38,545 bases of DNA, taken from contig JAISJU010000219.1 in assembly GCA_031261165.1 (NCBI GenBank), positions 1 to 38,545 on the forward strand, written 5' to 3'. The position numbers were made by a program, and so were the translations under genes. This DNA comes from Prevotellaceae bacterium (lineage in GTDB: Bacteria; Bacteroidota; Bacteroidia; Bacteroidales; Paludibacteraceae). Positions 3,275-38,139 of the stretch are shown piece after piece. Under the pieces are notes generated by a model. It did not search any database. It was not told where the DNA came from and saw only the letters and a program-made list of their open reading frames with translations. Position 1 is the first letter of the stretch. Each line of letters opens with the position of its first letter.

Positions 3275-3880
3275 CTACATAAATTTTGCACGCGATTTCT
3301 CACCGAGATAACCGCCGTGATGCCGTTTTGCATATTCGGCGTGCGTAAAGGCGATTTTCTGCATCACGCCCACCACGAGAATATCCCCGATAACGGTCAT
3401 CATCGTGGTGGAAGTGGTCGGCGTCAGACCCAAAATGCACACTTCGGCGGGATTGCCGGTACAGAGGCAGGCATCGGCGGCTTTTGCCAGCAGACTGTCC
3501 GCATTGCCGGTAATCACTATAAATTTGATGTGCGGGCACAGCCGGCGGGCTAAATCCGTCAATTCTACAATTTCGCGCGTTTTGCCCGAGTTGGAAATAA
3601 GCAGCATCAGGTCGTTTTCCTGCAAGACGCCCAAATCGCCGTGCTGCGCCTCGCTTGGGTGCAGGAACACGGCAGGCGTGCCGGTGGAACTGAACGTAGT
3701 GGAAATATTCATTGCAATTTGCCCCGCTTTGCCCATTCCGCTGGTTACGAGTTTGCCTTTACGCAAGTGAATTTGCTCGCAAATCAGGTTGATGGCTTTT
3801 TCAAAGTCGTCTGTGATGGGCAAATTTAATATTGCATTCGCCTCTTTTTCAAGCAGTTGTTTGATTTCTTCTTTTTGCAT
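3275..3880 (-). CDS. kpsF: Single-domain D-arabinose-5-phosphate isomerase (KpsF/KdsD family)
   Basis: This 201-residue sugar isomerase (SIS) domain protein is expected to interconvert D-ribulose 5-phosphate and D-arabinose 5-phosphate, the first step towards Kdo of lipopolysaccharide. Visible signatures are TSGMGKAGQIA (residues 46-56), HPSEAQHGDLG (74-84), ISNSGKT (95-101) and a C-terminal RHHGGYLG. The classical E. coli enzymes have two CBS domains after the SIS domain; here the protein stops right after it, as in the known single-domain Bacteroides enzyme. The start at 3880 was chosen because a TATTTTTG promoter box lies 22 bases upstream; the longer reading frame would overlap the divergent gene. 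No other Kdo genes are in the window. Confidence 0.88.
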   Translation of the reverse strand: MQKEEIKQLLEKEANAILNLPITDDFEKAINLICEQIHLRKGKLVTSGMGKAGQIAMNISTTFSSTGTPAVFLHPSEAQHGDLGVLQENDLMLLISNSGKTREIVELTDLARRLCPHIKFIVITGNADSLLAKAADACLCTGNPAEVCILGLTPTTSTTMMTVIGDILVVGVMQKIAFTHAEYAKRHHGGYLGEKSRAKFM

Positions 3881-16272: not shown

Positions 16273-16602
16273 TTAGAGATTAAAATCAATAAATTGTTTT
16301 ACGGTTCTGACATTTTTTGCAACACATTTGAACGTATGATTGCCAAAAAGAGAGATTTTACATTCTTTTGTTTGCAAAGAATTTACTTTTTTTGCGTTGA
16401 TAATAGTATTGCGCCTGATTTTGATAAAATATTCCGGCAATATTCGCTCTATATCTTTCAGTTTTTTGGTGCATATAAATTCATCATTACCTTCTAAGTA
16501 GAATGTACACAAATAGTTATCTACTGTAACTGCCAAAAGTGAATCAAAATGTATGGCTTTGATTTCTGTTTCGTTTCTAACTGTAAATGCGGTATGTTTC
16601 AT
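16273..16602 (-). CDS. Stand-alone LytTR DNA-binding regulator
   Basis: This 109-residue protein is almost wholly a LytTR domain, which binds direct repeats in promoter DNA. It shows the ITIK-like first strands (EIKAIHFDSLLAVTVDNYLCTFYL), a KKLKDIERILPEYFIKIRRNTIINAKKV helix-strand core and a final VRTVKQFIDFNL. No receiver domain is present, so it needs another input. The ATG at 16641 would give 13 more residues, but that stretch overlaps the conserved leader of structured RNA copy A on the other strand, so I prefer 16602. It is upstream of, and on the same strand as, the fibre-T9SS-RHS gene series and may control it; that link is inference. Confidence 0.82.
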   Translation of the reverse strand: MKHTAFTVRNETEIKAIHFDSLLAVTVDNYLCTFYLEGNDEFICTKKLKDIERILPEYFIKIRRNTIINAKKVNSLQTKECKISLFGNHTFKCVAKNVRTVKQFIDFNL

Positions 16603-16616
16603 ATTAGTAGAAAAGT

Positions 16617-16763
16617 AAATAGGAAAATCGCGAACTTTCATATTATTCGTGCTTGAGGTTCCGGAAAAGACCCGTACAGCAAATAATTAAATAAAGCCCA
16701 CGACACCCGTGAGCGTTATTACTTTATTTCTCGCTGTACTGAAATTTTCCGGATTCCAAGCAC
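16617..16763 (+). ncRNA. Structured RNA, copy A of a three-member family
   Basis: Parts in order: an A-rich leader (AAATAGGAAAAT); a small hairpin CGAA/UUCG (16631-16634 with 16646-16649); stem 1 of 7 bp (16649-16655 with 16757-16763); a bulged A and GGU facing UUC; stem 2 of 9 bp (16660-16668 with 16745-16753); an internal loop GACCC/UGAAA; stem 3 of 7 bp (GUACAGC/GCUGUAC, 16674-16680 with 16733-16739); an 8-bp stem AAAUAAAG/CUUUAUUU; and a CC plus CACG-ACACC-CGUG hairpin. Copies B and C share this plan with different paired bases. It is divergent from the LytTR gene. The strand was inferred from the shared leader. No clear -7 box was found for this copy. The family is not one I recognise. 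Confidence 0.78.
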
Positions 16764-17077
16764 CAAAACTTAAAGATAACGCTTTCCCTAATATGTTAGT
16801 AATCTGTTATTTGTTTTTTATTGTTATGTTGTTTTTGTTAGAATTAATGCACAAAGATAAAACTTTTACTATAAATAGAGAAATCTGAAAGAAAAATATT
16901 TTGCAAATACTTTTTTGTTTCCCATTTTCTTCGTATCTTTATCCCTCGAAAAAATCTGTTTGTTACCGGTTTATTTGCAATGGTTTATGCCTGTTCGCTA
17001 TTTTATTTTAGAAGGATAGATTAAACCTTTAACTCGAAAATATATCAAATAACTAAAACTTATATATTCCACTGATT
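16764..17077. other. Non-coding stretch between RNA copy A and the lipoprotein gene
   Basis: These 314 bases are AT-rich and contain no supportable gene. A near-match to the -7 box (TATCTTTA, 16934-16941) could serve the downstream lipoprotein gene with a leader of about 130 bases, but it lacks the final G. The part just after the RNA (about 16764-16800) is similar in position to the small terminator hairpins of copies B and C, though no strong stem is seen. Confidence 0.5.
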
Positions 17078-17510: not shown

Positions 17511-18617
17511 ATGCCTTTTTACACCTACTTATTATACCCGTTCGCACTGATATACGGCGCAGTTGTTTCCCTGCGCAATCGGCTGTTTGATTGGGGCGTT
17601 TTCCGCGAGCAGCGGTTTGACGTTCCCATTATTTGCGTGGGCAATCTGGCAGTGGGCGGAACAGGCAAAACGCCTCATACCGAATTGCTTATCTCTATCT
17701 TGAAAGATAAATACAAAGTTGCCGTTTTAAGTCGCGGATATAAGCGCAAAACAAAAGGTTTTATCTTGGCAAACGAAACCGCTACTGCTGAAACAATTGG
17801 CGACGAGCCTTTCCAAATCAAACGAAAATTTCCAAATATTGCCGTGGCGGTGGATAGTAATCGCAGGCGCGGCATTGCTTGCTTGCAAAAAACAGTAAAG
17901 CCCGATGTGATTTTGCTTGATGACGCTTTTCAGCACCGCTATGTGAAAGCAGGCTTGTCTGTGCTGCTGACCGACTGCAATTGCCTTTATACACGCGATT
18001 GCCTGTTGCCTGCGGGCAGGTTGCGCGAGCCGAAAAGCGGTGCCGAACGCGCGGATATGATTATTGTTACCAAATGCACAAATGGGATTGCGGGTCAAGC
18101 CCGCAATGACAAGACTGATAAAATCGAAAAGGAATTAAAACCGAATGAAAAGCAAGAACTGTATTTTTCGGCATTTCGGTATAAGGACATAGAGCCTGTT
18201 TTTCCGCTCGCGCGGATTTGTAATCCGTGTGATATTCGGCACGAGTTGCAAACTCGCGCCAGCGTGTCGGTACTACTGCTTACCGGCATTGTTAATCCGC
18301 AGCCGCTGCACGATTATTTGGCACAAAAAGCAAAAAACATCGTGTCCGTAAATTTCCCCGACCATCACGATTTTTCGCAACGCGATATTGAAAATATTTC
18401 AAAGAAATTCGCTGAAATCGAAAGCGAAAAAATCATTATCACCACCGAAAAAGATGCTGCCAGATTAATAGATAATCCGTATCTTTCGGAAGAATTGAAA
18501 CCGTTTATTTACAGTATTGGCATTGAAGTTGCCATCAACAAGGAAGAAGAATTTAACGCTAAAATATTAGAATATGTTGCAAAAAATAAAAGAAACAGCC
18601 GATTTTCTGAGAAATAA
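17511..18617 (+). CDS. lpxK: Tetraacyldisaccharide 4'-kinase with two in-frame repeat insertions
   Basis: LpxK phosphorylates the 4' position of the lipid A disaccharide at the inner membrane. The 368-residue protein has an N-terminal hydrophobic helix (FYTYLLYPFALIYG), the Walker A motif GGTGKTP (residues about 50-56), the conserved LSRGYKRKTKGF and LLDDAFQHR motifs, and a C-terminal TTEKDAARL motif. It carries two extra stretches encoded by palindromic repeats: GIAGQARND (residues 192-200) and ARICNPCDIRHELQTRA (residues 234-250). Both lie in the second half, between conserved blocks, and keep the frame. The ATG at 17511 was chosen over an upstream TTG. The 3' end overlaps punA by 44 bases. 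Function is firmly assigned; whether the insertions are tolerated is an inference from the open frame. Confidence 0.92.
   Translation: MPFYTYLLYPFALIYGAVVSLRNRLFDWGVFREQRFDVPIICVGNLAVGGTGKTPHTELLISILKDKYKVAVLSRGYKRKTKGFILANETATAETIGDEPFQIKRKFPNIAVAVDSNRRRGIACLQKTVKPDVILLDDAFQHRYVKAGLSVLLTDCNCLYTRDCLLPAGRLREPKSGAERADMIIVTKCTNGIAGQARNDKTDKIEKELKPNEKQELYFSAFRYKDIEPVFPLARICNPCDIRHELQTRASVSVLLLTGIVNPQPLHDYLAQKAKNIVSVNFPDHHDFSQRDIENISKKFAEIESEKIIITTEKDAARLIDNPYLSEELKPFIYSIGIEVAINKEEEFNAKILEYVAKNKRNSRFSEK
18084..18111. repeat. Palindromic repeat inside lpxK (first insertion)
   Basis: ATTGCGGGTCAAGCCCGCAAT is a near-perfect palindrome and matches the right-hand part of the element at 26650-26677 over its whole length. 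It encodes GIAGQARND in the lpxK frame without a stop. The same words occur in the intergenic element at 13566-13660. Confidence 0.85.
18210..18260. repeat. Second, different palindromic repeat inside lpxK
   Basis: Two small palindromes, CGGATTTGTAATCCG (18213-18227) and CGAGTTGCAAACTCG (18242-18256), are joined by 14 bases. Together they encode 17 residues (ARICNPCDIRHELQTRA) that have no place in the LpxK family. It is unlike the ATTGCGGG family. I recognise similar CGGATTTGTAATCCG words as dispersed repeats in Bacteroidota but cannot check this here. Confidence 0.65.
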
Positions 18618-25263: not shown

Positions 25264-27066
25264 ATGCGCCACCTACATTCAGACGAAGTCGCCGCCCTGC
25301 AAACGCAACATTGTACCGCCGAAAATTGGCAAAACATCGCGGTTGCCGAAAATTTTTCGCCGAACGATATATATAATGTATCTTTTTCGGGGGAAATTAT
25401 TTTAGAGGCAAACATTCATATCCGCAACAGCGAAATTTCCAATTATCACATCAAAGAAGGCGCGTTTATTCATAACGTAAAATCTCTGTCGGTAGAAGGC
25501 AAGACCGCTTTCGGCAACGGCACGGCAGTCTGCGTACTGAACGAGGCAGGCGGGCGCGAAGTAAAAATTTTCGATAAACTGTCGGCACACTTCGCATACC
25601 TCTTGGCACTCTATCGCCACCGCCCGCTGCTCATTGAGAAAATGAACGCCGCGATAGACAAATACGTCATTGAGCAAACAAGCGGCGTTGTCGGCAGAGG
25701 CGCAAGAATTACAAATTGCGGCGTTATCCGCAACGTAAAAATCGGCGACTGCGCCCGCTTGGAGAATGTGGCGGAGTTGCAAAACGGCAGTATTGCCGAG
25801 CAGGCTTTTGTCGGCACAGGCACGGTTGCGCGGGATTTTATCATTGGCAAAGGCAGCCGCGTGTATGACTACGCGCTGTTGGAAAAAACCTTTGTCGGCG
25901 AAGCCTGCGAGGTGGGTAAGCAATTCTCGGCAACGGATTCGCTCATTTTTTGCAACAGCCAACTGCTGCACGGCGAGGCGGCGGCGGTTTTTGCGGGTGC
26001 TTACACCACTTCGCACCACAAATCGACACTGCTCATCGGCTCCCTCTTCTCGTTTTACAACGCCGGCAGCGGCACCAATATGAGCAATCACATGTACAAG
26101 TTGGGACCCGTACATCAGGGCATTTTCGAGCGCGGCGCAAAAACCGGCAGCGGTTCTTACCTGATGCTTGAGGCGCGGGTGGGCGCATTCTCGCTCGTCT
26201 TGGGGCATCACGAGGCGCATTTCGACAGCAGCGATTTGCCCTTCTCCTACATTTTGGAAAAAGACGGTCGCACGGAACTAATCCCCGCCGTCAATTTCCA
26301 AACAGTCGGCACGCAGCGCGACAGCCAAAAATGGCGCAAGCGCGACAAACGCACCGGCGACACATTAGATTACATCACTTTCGATTTATTAAATCCTTAT
26401 ATTATAGGAAAAATCTGCAACGGCATAGCCGTCTTGGAAAAATTAGCCGAGAAACAGGCGGATTACCATTCTTACAAAGGTGTGCGGATAAAAAACATCT
26501 TTTTGAAAAAAGGGATTGAGATTTATAAATCGGCGATTGCTGTTTATGTCGGGCAGGCACTCGCTCTTTCCTATCATTGCGGGCTTGACCCGCAATCCCC
26601 TGTTTCAACCCGTCATTCTGACGAAAGTCAGAATCCCCTTTGTTTTCCGGGGATTGCGGGTCAAGCCCGCAATGACACAAGAGAACAATGGCTCGACATT
26701 GCCGGTCTAATTGTCCCACAAGACATATTAAATGAGATGTTACTGCAAATAGAAACCGAAAAAATCACAAGCATAGAAGAAATAAATCACTCGTTTTCCG
26801 AAATGTACAAGAATTACAGCCAATACGAGCAGGCATTTGTTGCTCAACTGCTGCAAAAATATTTCCCTGAAAAAGCAGAAATATCGCAAAAACAAACGGA
26901 ACTAAGCAACGCCATTCTCGCCGATGCCGAAAAAGAATTTTCCGCAAGCTCAATGGTCGGTTTCGGCATTGATGGCGATGAAGAGGTGAAACGCGCCGAT
27001 TTTGAGAATGTGCGGGGGACGTTTGCCGAAAATGCTTTTGTGAGAGAGATTAAAAAAACTTGTTAA
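25264..27066 (+). CDS. DUF4954 protein with left-handed beta-helix repeats and an in-frame repeat insertion
   Basis: This 600-residue protein begins with the family N-terminus (MRHLHSDEVAALQTQHC) and has many hexapeptide-like turns (IRNSEISNYHIKEGAFIHNV, GRGARITNCGVIRNVKIGDCARL, VGTGTVARDFIIGKGSRVYDY), the mark of a left-handed beta-helix as in sugar acyl- and nucleotidyltransferases. Residues 438-471 are encoded by palindromic repeats (GLDPQSPV, then RHSDESQNP, then GIAGQARND) and look foreign to the family. After them the sequence resumes with WLDIAGLIVPQDIL. Function is not known; sugar-nucleotide or cell-envelope work is possible. It may be part of an older hflX-DUF4954 neighbourhood split by the lipid A pair. 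Confidence 0.82.
   Translation: MRHLHSDEVAALQTQHCTAENWQNIAVAENFSPNDIYNVSFSGEIILEANIHIRNSEISNYHIKEGAFIHNVKSLSVEGKTAFGNGTAVCVLNEAGGREVKIFDKLSAHFAYLLALYRHRPLLIEKMNAAIDKYVIEQTSGVVGRGARITNCGVIRNVKIGDCARLENVAELQNGSIAEQAFVGTGTVARDFIIGKGSRVYDYALLEKTFVGEACEVGKQFSATDSLIFCNSQLLHGEAAAVFAGAYTTSHHKSTLLIGSLFSFYNAGSGTNMSNHMYKLGPVHQGIFERGAKTGSGSYLMLEARVGAFSLVLGHHEAHFDSSDLPFSYILEKDGRTELIPAVNFQTVGTQRDSQKWRKRDKRTGDTLDYITFDLLNPYIIGKICNGIAVLEKLAEKQADYHSYKGVRIKNIFLKKGIEIYKSAIAVYVGQALALSYHCGLDPQSPVSTRHSDESQNPLCFPGIAGQARNDTREQWLDIAGLIVPQDILNEMLLQIETEKITSIEEINHSFSEMYKNYSQYEQAFVAQLLQKYFPEKAEISQKQTELSNAILADAEKEFSASSMVGFGIDGDEEVKRADFENVRGTFAENAFVREIKKTC
26574..26678. repeat. Palindromic repeat inserted in the DUF4954 gene
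   Basis: Three palindromic parts lie in a row: CATTGCGGGCTTGACCCGC, then GTCATTCTGACGAAAGTCAG, then GGATTGCGGGTCAAGCCCGC. The middle and right parts match the intergenic element at 13566-13660, and the right part matches the insertion in lpxK at 18084-18111. About 105 bases, a multiple of three, keep the reading frame open. Confidence 0.88.
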
Positions 27067-27097: not shown

Positions 27098-27829
27098 TTA
27101 ATCTCTTAACCATACGCCTGCGGCTGCTACTGCTGCCCAATTTTTTGCTTTTCTTGTTTGTATTAATGTTTCTTCTGCTATTTCTGACTGTCGCTGTTGA
27201 ACTGCCAACCTTTTTGCAGCGTTTTCTTCCAATGTCCATTTATGATATTGGTCATCGTATTTATCTATCAATTCTTTCCAAGTATCTGCTTTGCCTTTTT
27301 TCAAAAATTCCATCATAGTTTCAAGTGCCAGCATATAGCAATATCCTTCGTAGATTAAAGGTAAATATTGTGTATTTCTGAGTTTCTCGTGTGCCTCATT
27401 TTCTTTTGCATCTGCTCTTGCTTCTTCGTCTTTGGCTTGCTGTTCAAACTTTTGCTTTCTTTGTTTGCATTTTTGTTTTGCTTTTCGCAAAGGAATTATA
27501 CAGATAAGCAATAATAATGGTAAAAACATTGAAGGTTCTTTTGAAATCATTTGTATAATTTGTTGCATACCGCATATTATTACTCCCATTATTAGCACAA
27601 CCCAATAAAATGTTGAGAATAATAGTAATAGTTTCCAACCAGAACCTGCGTGTTTTGGATTTTCTTCTTTTGCTTTTTGGCGAATAACTACTGCATTCTG
27701 CCGATGTTTTTCGGCTTGTTTTTGCAATATTTCGATTTCATTCAGTTCTGAATGTGCTTTTTCGAGCAAGAAATATAATTCCTCTCTCGAACGATTGCTC
27801 AACCAATTTAAGTGTTCTGTGTTAATCAT
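27098..27829 (-). CDS. Coiled-coil membrane protein of unknown function
   Basis: I do not recognise this 243-residue protein. It has an N-terminal helical region with heptads (about residues 15-60), two hydrophobic segments (about 67-92 and 100-115: LLLLFSTFYWVVLIMGVIICG, split by MQQIIQMISKEPS), a very charged Lys/Glu/Ala-rich coiled coil (about 115-155) and a C-terminal helical part ending in AVAAAGVWLRD. It could be a membrane-anchored scaffold. It is divergent from structured RNA copy B, whose 5' end lies about 60 bases upstream of the start codon. Confidence 0.62.
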   Translation of the reverse strand: MINTEHLNWLSNRSREELYFLLEKAHSELNEIEILQKQAEKHRQNAVVIRQKAKEENPKHAGSGWKLLLLFSTFYWVVLIMGVIICGMQQIIQMISKEPSMFLPLLLLICIIPLRKAKQKCKQRKQKFEQQAKDEEARADAKENEAHEKLRNTQYLPLIYEGYCYMLALETMMEFLKKGKADTWKELIDKYDDQYHKWTLEENAAKRLAVQQRQSEIAEETLIQTRKAKNWAAVAAAGVWLRD

Positions 27830-27890: not shown

Positions 27891-28028
27891 AAATAAAAAA
27901 GCGGACTTACATTATCCGCTTGTGAGGTATTAGGAAACCCGTAGAAAGAAATAAGTTAAGCCCGCAATATTGCGTGCATTTACAACTTATCCTTTATTCT
28001 ACATTGAAAGTTCCTAATTTTCACAAGC
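27891..28028 (+). ncRNA. Structured RNA, copy B of a three-member family
   Basis: In order: A-rich leader (AAATAAAAAAG), hairpin CGGA/UCCG (27902-27905 with 27915-27918), stem 1 GCUUGUG/CACAAGC (27918-27924 with 28022-28028), bulged A and GGU facing UUU, stem 2 of 8 bp (AUUAGGAA/UUCCUAAU), an internal loop ACCC/AUUGAAAG, stem 3 GUAGAA/UUCUAC, an AUAAGUU/AACUUAU stem, and CC with hairpin CGCA-AUAU-UGCG. A weak GCGT-TAA-ACGC hairpin follows at 28038-28048 and may end the RNA. It runs tail-to-tail into the MazF-like gene (stop at 28109) and is divergent from the gene at 27098. No reading frame fits it. It is not a family I recognise. Confidence 0.85.
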
Positions 28029-28108
28029 GAGAATAAAGCGTTAAACGCGATTCCAAAATGTCTTATTTTGTGCCTAATCAGCACGAATTTCACATCATAT
28101 CTTTGTTT

Positions 28109-28435
28109 TTAAATTATAGAGTTATATATTGATTTTACTTTATCTGAAATGTCATTATCTATTTGCCCCATAAAACTTTCTATCATATTGGTTTCCAATG
28201 TTGCCATTTTATGAACACGCACAACAGAAGGCAATTTTAGTCCGAATTTTTCCCATTCATCAAGATAAATATCATATTTGCCGGTATAAATCTTGCTTGT
28301 AATACGGCAAACAAGAATGTCGCCGTCAGCAAAATCTTTAAGTACCAACACGGGTCGCCGTTTGTAAGTAATGCCGTCAGTAAAAGGGAATTTCAATAAT
28401 ACGATACTGCCTGTTTCTATTACATTCATAATCAT
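28109..28435 (-). CDS. MazF/PemK-type toxin
   Basis: The 108-residue product is a small beta-barrel endoribonuclease toxin of the MazF/PemK/CcdB fold. Visible are GSIVLLKFPFTD (the first strands), KRRPVLVLKD (the conserved RPxLVL motif), a VCRITSK strand in the place of the usual catalytic T/S region, and SVVRVHKMATL before the C-terminal helix. It begins 7 bases after the antitoxin stop. An ATG at 28429 is an alternative start. Structured RNA copy B points at its 3' end from the other strand. Confidence 0.85.
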   Translation of the reverse strand: MIMNVIETGSIVLLKFPFTDGITYKRRPVLVLKDFADGDILVCRITSKIYTGKYDIYLDEWEKFGLKLPSVVRVHKMATLETNMIESFMGQIDNDISDKVKSIYNSII

Positions 28436-31707: not shown

Positions 31708-31777
31708 GATTTGCGATTTGCGATTTGCGATTTGCGATTTGCGATTTGCGATTTGCGATTTGCGATTTGCGATTTGC
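31708..31777. repeat. Ten perfect 7-bp tandem repeats in front of cdaA
   Basis: GATTTGC is repeated ten times without error over 70 bases, then continues with GAC. The array begins 9 bases before the cdaA start codon (31696-31698) on the minus strand. Such arrays change length by slipped-strand mispairing. Its period is not a multiple of three, but it lies outside the coding region, so it would alter spacing, not frame. Confidence 0.92.
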
Positions 31778-31813
31778 GACTGTTTTTTTGTCGCAAATCG
31801 CATATCGCAAATC
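31757..31813. repeat. Long hairpin formed by the 7-bp array and an inverted copy
   Basis: The last three units plus GAC (31757-31780) pair with 31790-31813 over 24 bases with one mismatch, around a T-rich 9-base loop. On the minus strand the hairpin lies between the folP stop (31821-31823) and the cdaA ATG. Confidence 0.85.
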
Positions 31814-36760: not shown

Positions 36761-36940
36761 ATGATGAATGATGTAATGGACATAGATGTATGCGAAGAAA
36801 TTTATTCTTCGACACACACATTAGAACAAAATCTGCCGTATGCAGAACGTTTGTCTATTGAGCGTGGGTATAATGATTTCCTGCAAAACAGAGTTATTGC
36901 TCATACACAAGTACGAAAGCGTTATGAAAAATGGCTTTGA
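36761..36940 (+). CDS. Antitoxin-like small protein
   Basis: This 59-residue acidic protein (MMNDVMDIDVCEEIY) has a helical end rich in Glu, Arg and Tyr (ERLSIERGYNDFLQNRVI, TQVRKRYEKWL). It has no obvious DNA-binding fold. It overlaps the toxin start by 17 bases, in the usual antitoxin-first order, and has its own -7 box. A start at 36776 is possible. Function rests on position. Confidence 0.65.
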   Translation: MMNDVMDIDVCEEIYSSTHTLEQNLPYAERLSIERGYNDFLQNRVIAHTQVRKRYEKWL

Positions 36941-37232
36941 GATAGAATGGGCTTCTGATGCCGAACGAAATTTGAGTGCTATTTTTGATTATCTGGAAAG
37001 CAGATGGTCAGAGAGAGAAATTTCAAATTTTGCCGAATTATTGGAAACATATTTGCATACCATATCACAAAATCCCGCTACTTTTCCATATTACGACAGA
37101 AAAAAAAACATAAGACGTTGTGTGCTTTCACCGCAAACGACTATTTATTATAAAGAAATTACATTTGAGAATAGGGTTGTCATTATTGCCTTATTTAATA
37201 ATAGACAAAATCCCAAAACTTTGAGAATTTGA
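36924..37232 (+). CDS. RelE/ParE-family toxin
   Basis: The 102-residue product has the RelE/ParE superfamily features: EIEWASDAERNLSAIFDYL at the start, a helix pair up to ISQNPATFPYY, and the strands NIRRCVLSPQTTIYYKEI and RVVIIALFNNRQNPKTL near the end. It could be an mRNA interferase or a gyrase poison; this cannot be decided here. The ATG at 36924 overlaps the antitoxin gene; the longer frame from 36840 lacks family similarity. Structured RNA copy C points towards its 3' end on the other strand. Confidence 0.85.
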   Translation: MKNGFEIEWASDAERNLSAIFDYLESRWSEREISNFAELLETYLHTISQNPATFPYYDRKKNIRRCVLSPQTTIYYKEITFENRVVIIALFNNRQNPKTLRI

Positions 37233-37251
37233 AAATACATTTTATTTATTA

Positions 37252-37264
37252 GCGTTTTCAACGC
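37252..37264 (-). terminator. Small hairpin at the 3' end of RNA copy C
   Basis: On the minus strand GCGTT-GAA-AACGC forms a 5-bp stem with a 3-base loop, followed by an AT-rich stretch. It lies 8 bases after the RNA core and 20 bases from the toxin stop codon. A similar small GCGT hairpin follows copy B. Confidence 0.5.
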
Positions 37265-37272
37265 ATTTCTTG

Positions 37273-37392
37273 GCTCTTGGAACTTAGACAACTTCAATGC
37301 TACAAGAAGAAACATATTCGCAGCAATGCGGGTTATATCTTGTAGCAGGTAGTCTAAGACCTCAAGAGCAGATATAGTCCGATTTTTTATTT
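37273..37392 (-). ncRNA. Structured RNA, copy C of a three-member family
   Basis: Read on the minus strand: A-rich leader (AAATAAAAAATCGGA, 37378-37392); hairpin CGGA/UCUG; stem 1 GCUCUUG/CAAGAGC (37363-37369 with 37273-37279); bulged A and GGU facing UUC; stem 2 CUUAGAC/GUCUAAG; internal loop UACCU/AUUGAAGUU; stem 3 GCUACAAGA/UCUUGUAGC of 9 bp; and CC with hairpin CGCA-UUGC-UGCG. The stem next to that hairpin is not as clear as in A and B. It is divergent from the ABC gene and converges with the RelE/ParE-type gene. Promoter strength is unclear on this strand. I do not recognise the family. Confidence 0.8.
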
Positions 37393-37464: not shown

Positions 37465-38139
37465 ATGATAACCTTAAACAACATCAACAAAACCTATTAC
37501 ACGGAGGCAACCTCGCTACACGTGCTTAAAGGCATTGATTTAGAGATAGAACGCGGCGAGTACGTGTCCATTATGGGTACGTCCGGGTCGGGAAAATCTA
37601 CGCTGCTGAATATTCTCGGCATTTTGGATAACTACGATACGGGCGAGTATTTTCTTGACGGCAAACTGATAAAAAACCTCTCGGAGAAACAGGCGGCGCA
37701 GTATCGCAACGAGATGATTGGTTTCGTTTTTCAATCTTTTAATCTGATTAATTTTAAAAATGCGCTGGAAAATGTGGCGTTGCCGCTCTATTATAAAGGC
37801 ATCGGCAGAAAACGGCGCAACGAAATTGCGCTTGAATATCTCGACCGTATGGGACTGAAAGATTGGGCTACGCACTTGCCAAACGAACTGTCCGGCGGAC
37901 AGAAACAACGCGTTGCCATTGCGCGGGCGATGATTTCAAATCCGAAAATACTGCTGGCAGACGAGCCGACCGGTGCGCTCGACAGCAAAACGACCGAAGA
38001 AGTAATGCAGGTGCTGAAACAGTTGAACAACAGCGGCATTACCACCATAATAGTAACACACGAACAATCCGTAGCGGCGGAAACGCGGCGGGTTATTCAT
38101 ATAAAAGATGGATTGATTGAGAATATAGACACAAGATAA
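37465..38139 (+). CDS. ABC transporter ATP-binding protein (LolD/MacB type)
   Basis: The 224-residue ATPase has Walker A GTSGSGKST, the Q-loop FVFQSFNLI, signature LSGGQKQRVAIARAM and Walker B ILLADEPTGALDSK with the LolD/MacB-type GALD end and H-loop TTIIVTHE. It should power a permease of the MacB/FtsX fold, encoded 62 bases downstream, to export a peptide, lipid or lipoprotein. Substrate is not known. The final residues IDTR and the stop overlap a 14-bp repeat. Confidence 0.93.
   Translation: MITLNNINKTYYTEATSLHVLKGIDLEIERGEYVSIMGTSGSGKSTLLNILGILDNYDTGEYFLDGKLIKNLSEKQAAQYRNEMIGFVFQSFNLINFKNALENVALPLYYKGIGRKRRNEIALEYLDRMGLKDWATHLPNELSGGQKQRVAIARAMISNPKILLADEPTGALDSKTTEEVMQVLKQLNNSGITTIIVTHEQSVAAETRRVIHIKDGLIENIDTR

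Follow-up and report, generated by a model that had tools for sequence, protein, structure and literature searches.

Copies of the element in the window

The window analysed here, the whole stretch of 38,545 nucleotides of contig JAISJU010000219.1, carries three copies (A, B and C) of a structured element, each followed by a gene that runs in the same direction. The fold that the original prediction had placed at 16617–16763 (A), 27891–28028 (B) and 37273–37392 (C) is present at all three sites; z-scores against dinucleotide shuffles were −6.0, −4.75 and −5.75, respectively, and none of the shuffles folded equally well. The strands quoted for stem P1 were also verified (GTGCTTG/CAAGCAC in A, GCTTGTG/CACAAGC in B and GCTCTTG/CAAGAGC in C). 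Matches are to a covariance model (R2) that was built from 107 copies and used with a cut-off of E 1e-5; model E-values are rough, gene calls are simple open reading frame (ORF) calls and energies are predictions. The features of the three copies are as follows.

16273–16602, minus: gene downstream of A, encoding a LytTR DNA-binding domain protein (ORF; probable start ATG at 16602)
16620–16782, minus: copy A, whole leader element (R2 match, 115.9 bits)
16624–16638, minus: putative terminator of A, 3′ arm AAAGTTCGCG (16629–16638) and weak U-tract TTTT (16624–16627); from the sequence, the arm being complementary to P4′ CGTGGGCTTT
16852–16859, minus: promoter −7 box of A, TATCTTTG, upstream (exact TAnnTTTG)
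27098–27829, minus: gene downstream of B, 243 amino acids, no assigned function (co-directional, start 61 nt past the element)
27891–28048, minus: copy B, whole leader element (142.4 bits, E 1.1e-27, the highest-scoring R2 match of the genome)
27895–27908, minus: putative terminator of B, 3′ arm AAGTCCGC (27901–27908) and U-tract (27895–27900)
27918–27924, minus: 3′ strand of P1 in B, CACAAGC (alignment column map), overlapping the base of the local terminator
27926–27939, minus: GGT–ACC module of B (H2) around the 3′ strand of P2, TCCTAAT (27929–27935) (column map, covariation)
27960–27977, minus: P4 hairpin of B, whose 3′ arm TGCGGGC (27960–27966) doubles as the 5′ arm of the predicted long-range terminator
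28012–28018, minus: 5′ strand of P2 in B, ATTAGGA, flanked by AAA (28019–28021) and TTTC (28006–28009) (column map)
28022–28028, minus: 5′ strand of P1 in B, GCTTGTG (column map; P1 covaries)
37160–37167, plus: candidate −7 box of C, TACATTTG, upstream (exact TAnnTTTG)
37252–37392, plus: copy C, whole leader element (R2 match, 94.2 bits)
37370–37388, plus: putative terminator of C, U-tract and 3′ arm AGATATAGTCCG, with which P4′/P3′ could form 14 pairs
37465–38139, plus: gene downstream of C, an ABC transporter ATPase, then a permease-like ORF (co-directional, 72 nt past the element)

The genes just upstream of B (28109–28435, minus) and C (36840–37232, plus) have, by eye, the look of toxins (PemK/MazF-like, RelE-like). 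Elsewhere in the window, the in-frame protein-level repeats GIAGQARND and HCGLDPQSP interrupt two genes (~18100–18200 and 26540–26720), which resembles the insertion of a small palindromic repeat into coding sequence, and a tandem repeat at ~31725–31800 translates as ICDLRFAICDLRFA.

A widespread family of 5′ mRNA leaders

Comparison of copy B with its own genome at the DNA level gave eight further clear copies, a first covariance model built from 11 copies found approximately 38, and the R2 model found 49 at E 1e-5 or better in the 3.04 Mb genome, or one per 62 kb; the three copies counted initially thus fall well short of the number in this genome. The search of Bacteroidota genomes with a covariance model, which had been proposed as a check, likewise showed a family far larger than the window. 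In a set comprising this genome and 60 relatives, copies were detected in 40 of the 61 genomes, with a maximum among the relatives of 39 in a genome of 1.9 Mb, and there were also genomes of the same family within this set that carried none. Copies were also present in 39 of 296 well-assembled Bacteroidota genomes, other classes included, and since match numbers were low in most of the 296, false matches appear to be few. Named hosts with predicted copies are Parabacteroides distasonis An897 (8), Dysgonomonas hofstadii (8), a Paludibacter MAG (7), Bacteroides reticulotermitis (2) and Porphyromonas pasteri (1). No match to the element came from the phage records searched, and the plasmid search gave a single one, on a plasmid of Parabacteroides distasonis, where a hypothetical gene follows in the same direction. 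We note that in a Parabacteroides distasonis locus (L303:790–1305) two elements lie in tandem, approximately 120 nt apart, ahead of a gene for a dynamin-like GTPase.

The helices P1, P2 and P4 (7 bp each) and a 3-bp GGU/ACC pairing were scored on the alignment of 107 copies. Among 2512 cells, 97.5% were paired, a value matched by 0 of 500 shuffles, and 737 were changed on both sides as opposed to 195 in the shuffles; the alignment was fitted to P1, P2 and P4, so that their counts are somewhat inflated, but controls slid by 1–3 columns were far lower (39–48% paired). All 24 pairs showed at least one two-sided change. The U-A pair of GGU/ACC, which lies outside the alignment model, was paired in 96% of cells and ranked among the strongest unmodelled pairs; since the model does not contain it, its signal is not an artefact of fitting. 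The alignment sequences thus support the P1, P2 and P4 helices and the GGU/ACC pairing, and they bear out the earlier proposals that the stems change on both sides while staying paired and that an RNA structure under selection, and no recently copied repeat, is being observed. The GAGGU and ACCY motifs, originally described as unpaired, read ACC(UC) and (R)GGU on the RNA strand, where they can pair with each other, and this pairing covaries. The 3′ strand of P2 is flanked by GGU and ACC and its 5′ strand by AAA and UUU, so that P2 may belong to one continuous helical arm or may join two small hairpins by a kissing interaction. The idea of a complete, strongly covarying H1 hairpin (UUGAAA/UUUCAA) was rejected, the excess of pairing being weak. 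A 5′ subtype with GCGTAAATTGATACGCACAT occurs in loci L034 and L044–L050; its ATACGCACAT is complementary to ATGTGCGTAT just past the U-tract, and a further helix could form there in read-through transcripts.

The orientation of the RNA emerged from the non-Watson–Crick cells of P1, P2 and P4, of which, over the 107 copies, 143 are G-U and 10 A-C on the strand opposite to that originally assigned. Since those G-U pairs would be A-C mismatches on the assigned strand, the RNA must be the opposite one, that is, the minus strand for A and B and the plus strand for C, in agreement with the upstream promoters. Indeed, the Bacteroidota promoter box TAnnTTTG lies within 150 nt upstream on the RNA strand in 134 of 181 copies, mostly 30–100 nt from the element; the opposite strand has it in 32, and shuffles predict 17. 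This reversal changes the reading of several parts. What had been taken for the 5′ portion, an A-rich leader and a CGRA/UYYG hairpin, is on the RNA strand the 3′ arm of the terminator followed by the U-tract (GCGGAT...GTCCGCTTTTTT), and the leading hairpin AAATAAAAAAGCGGA...TCCGC becomes GCGGA...TCCGCTTTTTT, i.e. the terminator. The −7 box described for copy B falls on the wrong strand, and no exact TAnnTTTG is present upstream on the RNA strand of B.

A free-standing RNA of 120–150 nt had been envisaged; the elements instead sit at the 5′ end of genes, with the U-tract ahead of a co-directional gene. The first gene past the U-tract runs in the same direction in 161 of 174 copies (binomial p 1e-33), and the gap between element and start codon has a median of 77 nt (10th–90th percentile 31–236). 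Position and orientation, as read from the genomes, show the elements to be 5′ mRNA leaders between a promoter and a co-directional gene. One of the few copies that have no co-directional gene behind them (L083, at C54:3455–3609 of this genome) faces prophage genes running the opposite way (Dam methylase, tape measure). At another locus (L321), a match to DUF805b RNA (RF02914) at 944–976 lies between the element (749–922) and the start codon (999). In several copies having long gaps (L023, L025, L029, L040 and L050), a second repeated module, GACGAC...CCGCCACAAAATATGAAACAGAATTGCAACTGTTCCCC..., separates the terminator from a downstream gene for a small secreted protein.

By a simple hydropathy rule applied to proteins of at least 100 amino acids, 76 of 105 downstream proteins have a signal-peptide-like N-terminus; among the remaining ORFs nearby, the figure is 53 of 195 (Fisher p 6e-14, a contrast somewhat inflated by some spurious ORFs in the background). 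Families that recur downstream are BspA-like leucine-rich repeats, T9SS sorting tails, DNA methyltransferases of type II/III restriction systems, LytTR (in two members by the family scan) and TM2; elsewhere in the class, loci of other families have, for example, an ECF sigma factor and SusC-like TonB-dependent receptors behind the element. No common pathway unites these varied proteins. On the best explanation, the regulated set would comprise many exported or surface genes together with some restriction-modification genes.

Alternative folds and a candidate attenuation mechanism

A U-tract is present in 134 of 140 copies, and the segment directly before it could form typically 13 pairs with the 3′ arm of P4 and the strand past it. 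Terminator arms pair better with the P4′ of their own copy (mean −16.9 kcal/mol) than with the arms of other copies (−12.2 kcal/mol; n = 134, 0 of 2000 permutations), and the preference also holds within this genome alone (−16.0 versus −11.4 kcal/mol). Similarly, S1, an AUUCUUG segment before P1, pairs with the CAAGAAU-like S1′ after the 5′ strand of P3 in a manner specific to each copy (z −11), both control comparisons being null. Each of these two pairings is incompatible with parts of P1–P4. Such own-copy complementarity implies that the sequence can adopt two mutually exclusive folds, which would correspond to an antiterminator and a terminator. A local terminator hairpin is found in 66 of the 134 copies with a U-tract, and 67 of the other 68 have a long-range helix of −10 kcal/mol or better; in approximately half of the family termination, if it takes place, must thus use a strand held in fold 1.

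Judged from sequence, the predicted anatomy of the leader is that of an attenuator: it lies between promoter and gene, ends in an intrinsic terminator on the 3′ side and shares the terminator strand with an alternative helix. The weak U-tract of A and the lack of an exact promoter box on the RNA strand of B count against this assignment, and the long-range terminator loop is unusually large (median 45 nt).

We consider it probable that each copy is a 5′ mRNA leader acting as a two-state transcription attenuator. Transcription would begin at the Bacteroidota promoter 30–100 nt upstream of the element, and the polymerase would make a small hairpin first and then the long arm of P1, P2 and P3 with the inner hairpin P4. 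In fold 1, the putative antiterminator, P1–P4 would be formed and the 3′ arm of P4 (consensus CGUGGGCUU) held. In fold 2 this arm would pair with the segment before the U-tract (AAGUCCACG-UUUUUU), giving an intrinsic terminator, and the freed strands could form S1:S1′ on the 5′ side and the GGU/ACC hairpin on the 3′ side. A signal shifting the balance between the folds would then set the amount of transcript that reaches the downstream gene. By predicted energy, fold 1 is the more stable of the two, the median difference being 14 kcal/mol, so that termination would need either disruption of fold 1 or kinetic trapping. Read-through may be the default, with a signal causing termination, or fold 2 may be the kinetic product of transcription, with a signal stabilising fold 1. 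We infer regulation of this balance, with termination as its route and one of the folds stabilised by a signal.

The diversity of the downstream genes speaks against end-product feedback, and since they are so varied and mostly exported, we favour a global signal (a second messenger, a stress cue or an RNA-binding protein) over feedback by one metabolite. More speculatively, the family may be a new, phylum-wide class of RNA sensors in Bacteroidota, in which a bistable leader whose core is pseudoknotted or a kissing loop (with P2 joining the loops of the AAA/UUU and GGU/ACC hairpins) would read a global intracellular signal and gate, via termination, much of the exported and surface proteome together with restriction-modification genes; we put this forward tentatively.

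It is a serious possibility, if short of a probable one, that the attenuator binds a protein (an antiterminator, a terminator or a translation regulator) and not a small ligand. Conserved letters are placed at the helix junctions (GAAA, AUUU, GGU, ACC) and in P4, the helices being otherwise free in sequence, a pattern that would suit a protein reading shape and few bases. However, specific partners fared poorly. The genome encodes one NusG-family protein, and hence no paralogue of the UpxY/LoaP type, which led us to reject antitermination of that type as the general mechanism; an initial suspicion of a NusG paralogue encoded upstream, raised by many ORFs of 170–210 amino acids at that position, failed as these proved to be unrelated proteins cut by the 700-base flank. 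An RbpB-like RRM protein was likewise discarded as an obligatory partner, being absent at E 1e-6 from genomes with 39 (G024), 20 (G015) and 19 (G028) copies.

The elements would be expected to possess their own promoters and terminators, as they do, and to be multicopy like FopS (PMC11697453), if they were independent trans-acting small RNAs of approximately 200 nt regulating other mRNAs, and a terminated leader could act in trans as well. We regard this reading as unlikely, since a co-directional downstream gene in 161 of 174 copies is unexpected for free-standing sRNA genes and the sequences of P1, P2 and P3 vary so freely among copies that no common long seed is kept. Ribosome-dependent attenuation, in which a ribosome translating a short leader peptide across the 5′ half would free the terminator strands, has the merit that an active agent such as the ribosome would explain how fold 2 is reached despite a stable fold 1, and some type II 5′ modules begin CCTATGAAATAA. 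Nevertheless, a conserved peptide is hard to reconcile with the strict two-sided covariation of P1 and P2, and an unsystematic look noticed no conserved open frame across the element, and we consider this mechanism quite improbable. Least credible of all are mobile palindromic repeats (MITE/REP-like) inserted upstream of genes, with a fold serving DNA transposition: approximately 49 dispersed copies, a patchy distribution among relatives and one copy adjoining prophage genes would fit, but the G-U to A-C ratio of 143:10 points to selection on one RNA strand, and copies have in common their helices, not their sequence, and a systematic placement between promoter and gene. The two-state transcription attenuator remains our preferred reading.

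Comparison with known RNA families and leaders

The original prediction had not recognised the family, and this held: none of the 4227 families of Rfam 15 matched the element at gathering score in the window or in the loci of P. distasonis, Dysgonomonas and other Bacteroidota, and over its full length the window had no family at that score. When the three copies were scanned permissively, the matches were scattered, weak and mutually inconsistent. Three Bacteroidota RNAs were compared individually and ruled out as the identity of the element by model searches. The paralogous sRNAs FopS/GibS of Bacteroides (RF04319) are trans-acting, 65–70 nt long and carry a 5′ seed (PMC11697453); they resemble the element in being multicopy with a Bacteroidota promoter and a terminator, whereas the element measures approximately 160 nt plus a leader, and the 71-position FopS model did not match it in the window or in Parabacteroides locus L305. 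That locus, which also holds an element, has a FopS match of its own at 3588–3660. Flavo-1 (RF01705) is likewise a dispersed structured Bacteroidetes element with no assigned function, found indistinctly in sense or antisense of transcripts (PMC9723704); its model has 76 positions, and its best score in the genome was 22.8 bits, against a cut-off of 42, away from the elements. Bacteroidales-1 (RF01693) is structured, of similar length and from Bacteroidales, and its one copy in the genome (C44:6879–7053) overlaps no element.

A search of open-licence papers, supplementary tables aside, found no description of the leader. A human-microbiome screen (Fremin and Bhatt 2021) reported 3161 unnamed candidate motifs (PMC8040213), and the leader may already be among them by earlier computational detection. 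Compared with the open-licence literature and Rfam, that motif list aside, the family is apparently undescribed. If the proposed reading is correct, surface and secreted proteins across Bacteroidota are under the control of a single RNA class that occurs dozens of times per genome, in a phylum dominant in guts, soils and sediments in which few regulatory RNAs have a known function. The culturable hosts Parabacteroides distasonis and Dysgonomonas hofstadii make transcript ends, regulon and trigger directly testable.

Leaders read by NusG paralogues (UpxY, LoaP) are 5′ leaders with a terminator, often upstream of surface genes; they differ from the element in requiring a NusG paralogue that this genome lacks. 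Riboswitches and other cis-acting attenuator leaders resemble the element in several respects: they too are structured 5′ leaders placed between a promoter and its gene, carry an intrinsic terminator, can take up folds that exclude one another and keep conserved letters at junctions. The element differs from them in having no Rfam match, a very high copy number (49 in this genome) and a diverse regulon, and in that half of its copies would terminate only via long-range pairing with an inner hairpin arm. The best explanation is that the leader works like a riboswitch or a protein-dependent attenuator, an analogy of mode of action; the comparisons showed no membership in a named family.
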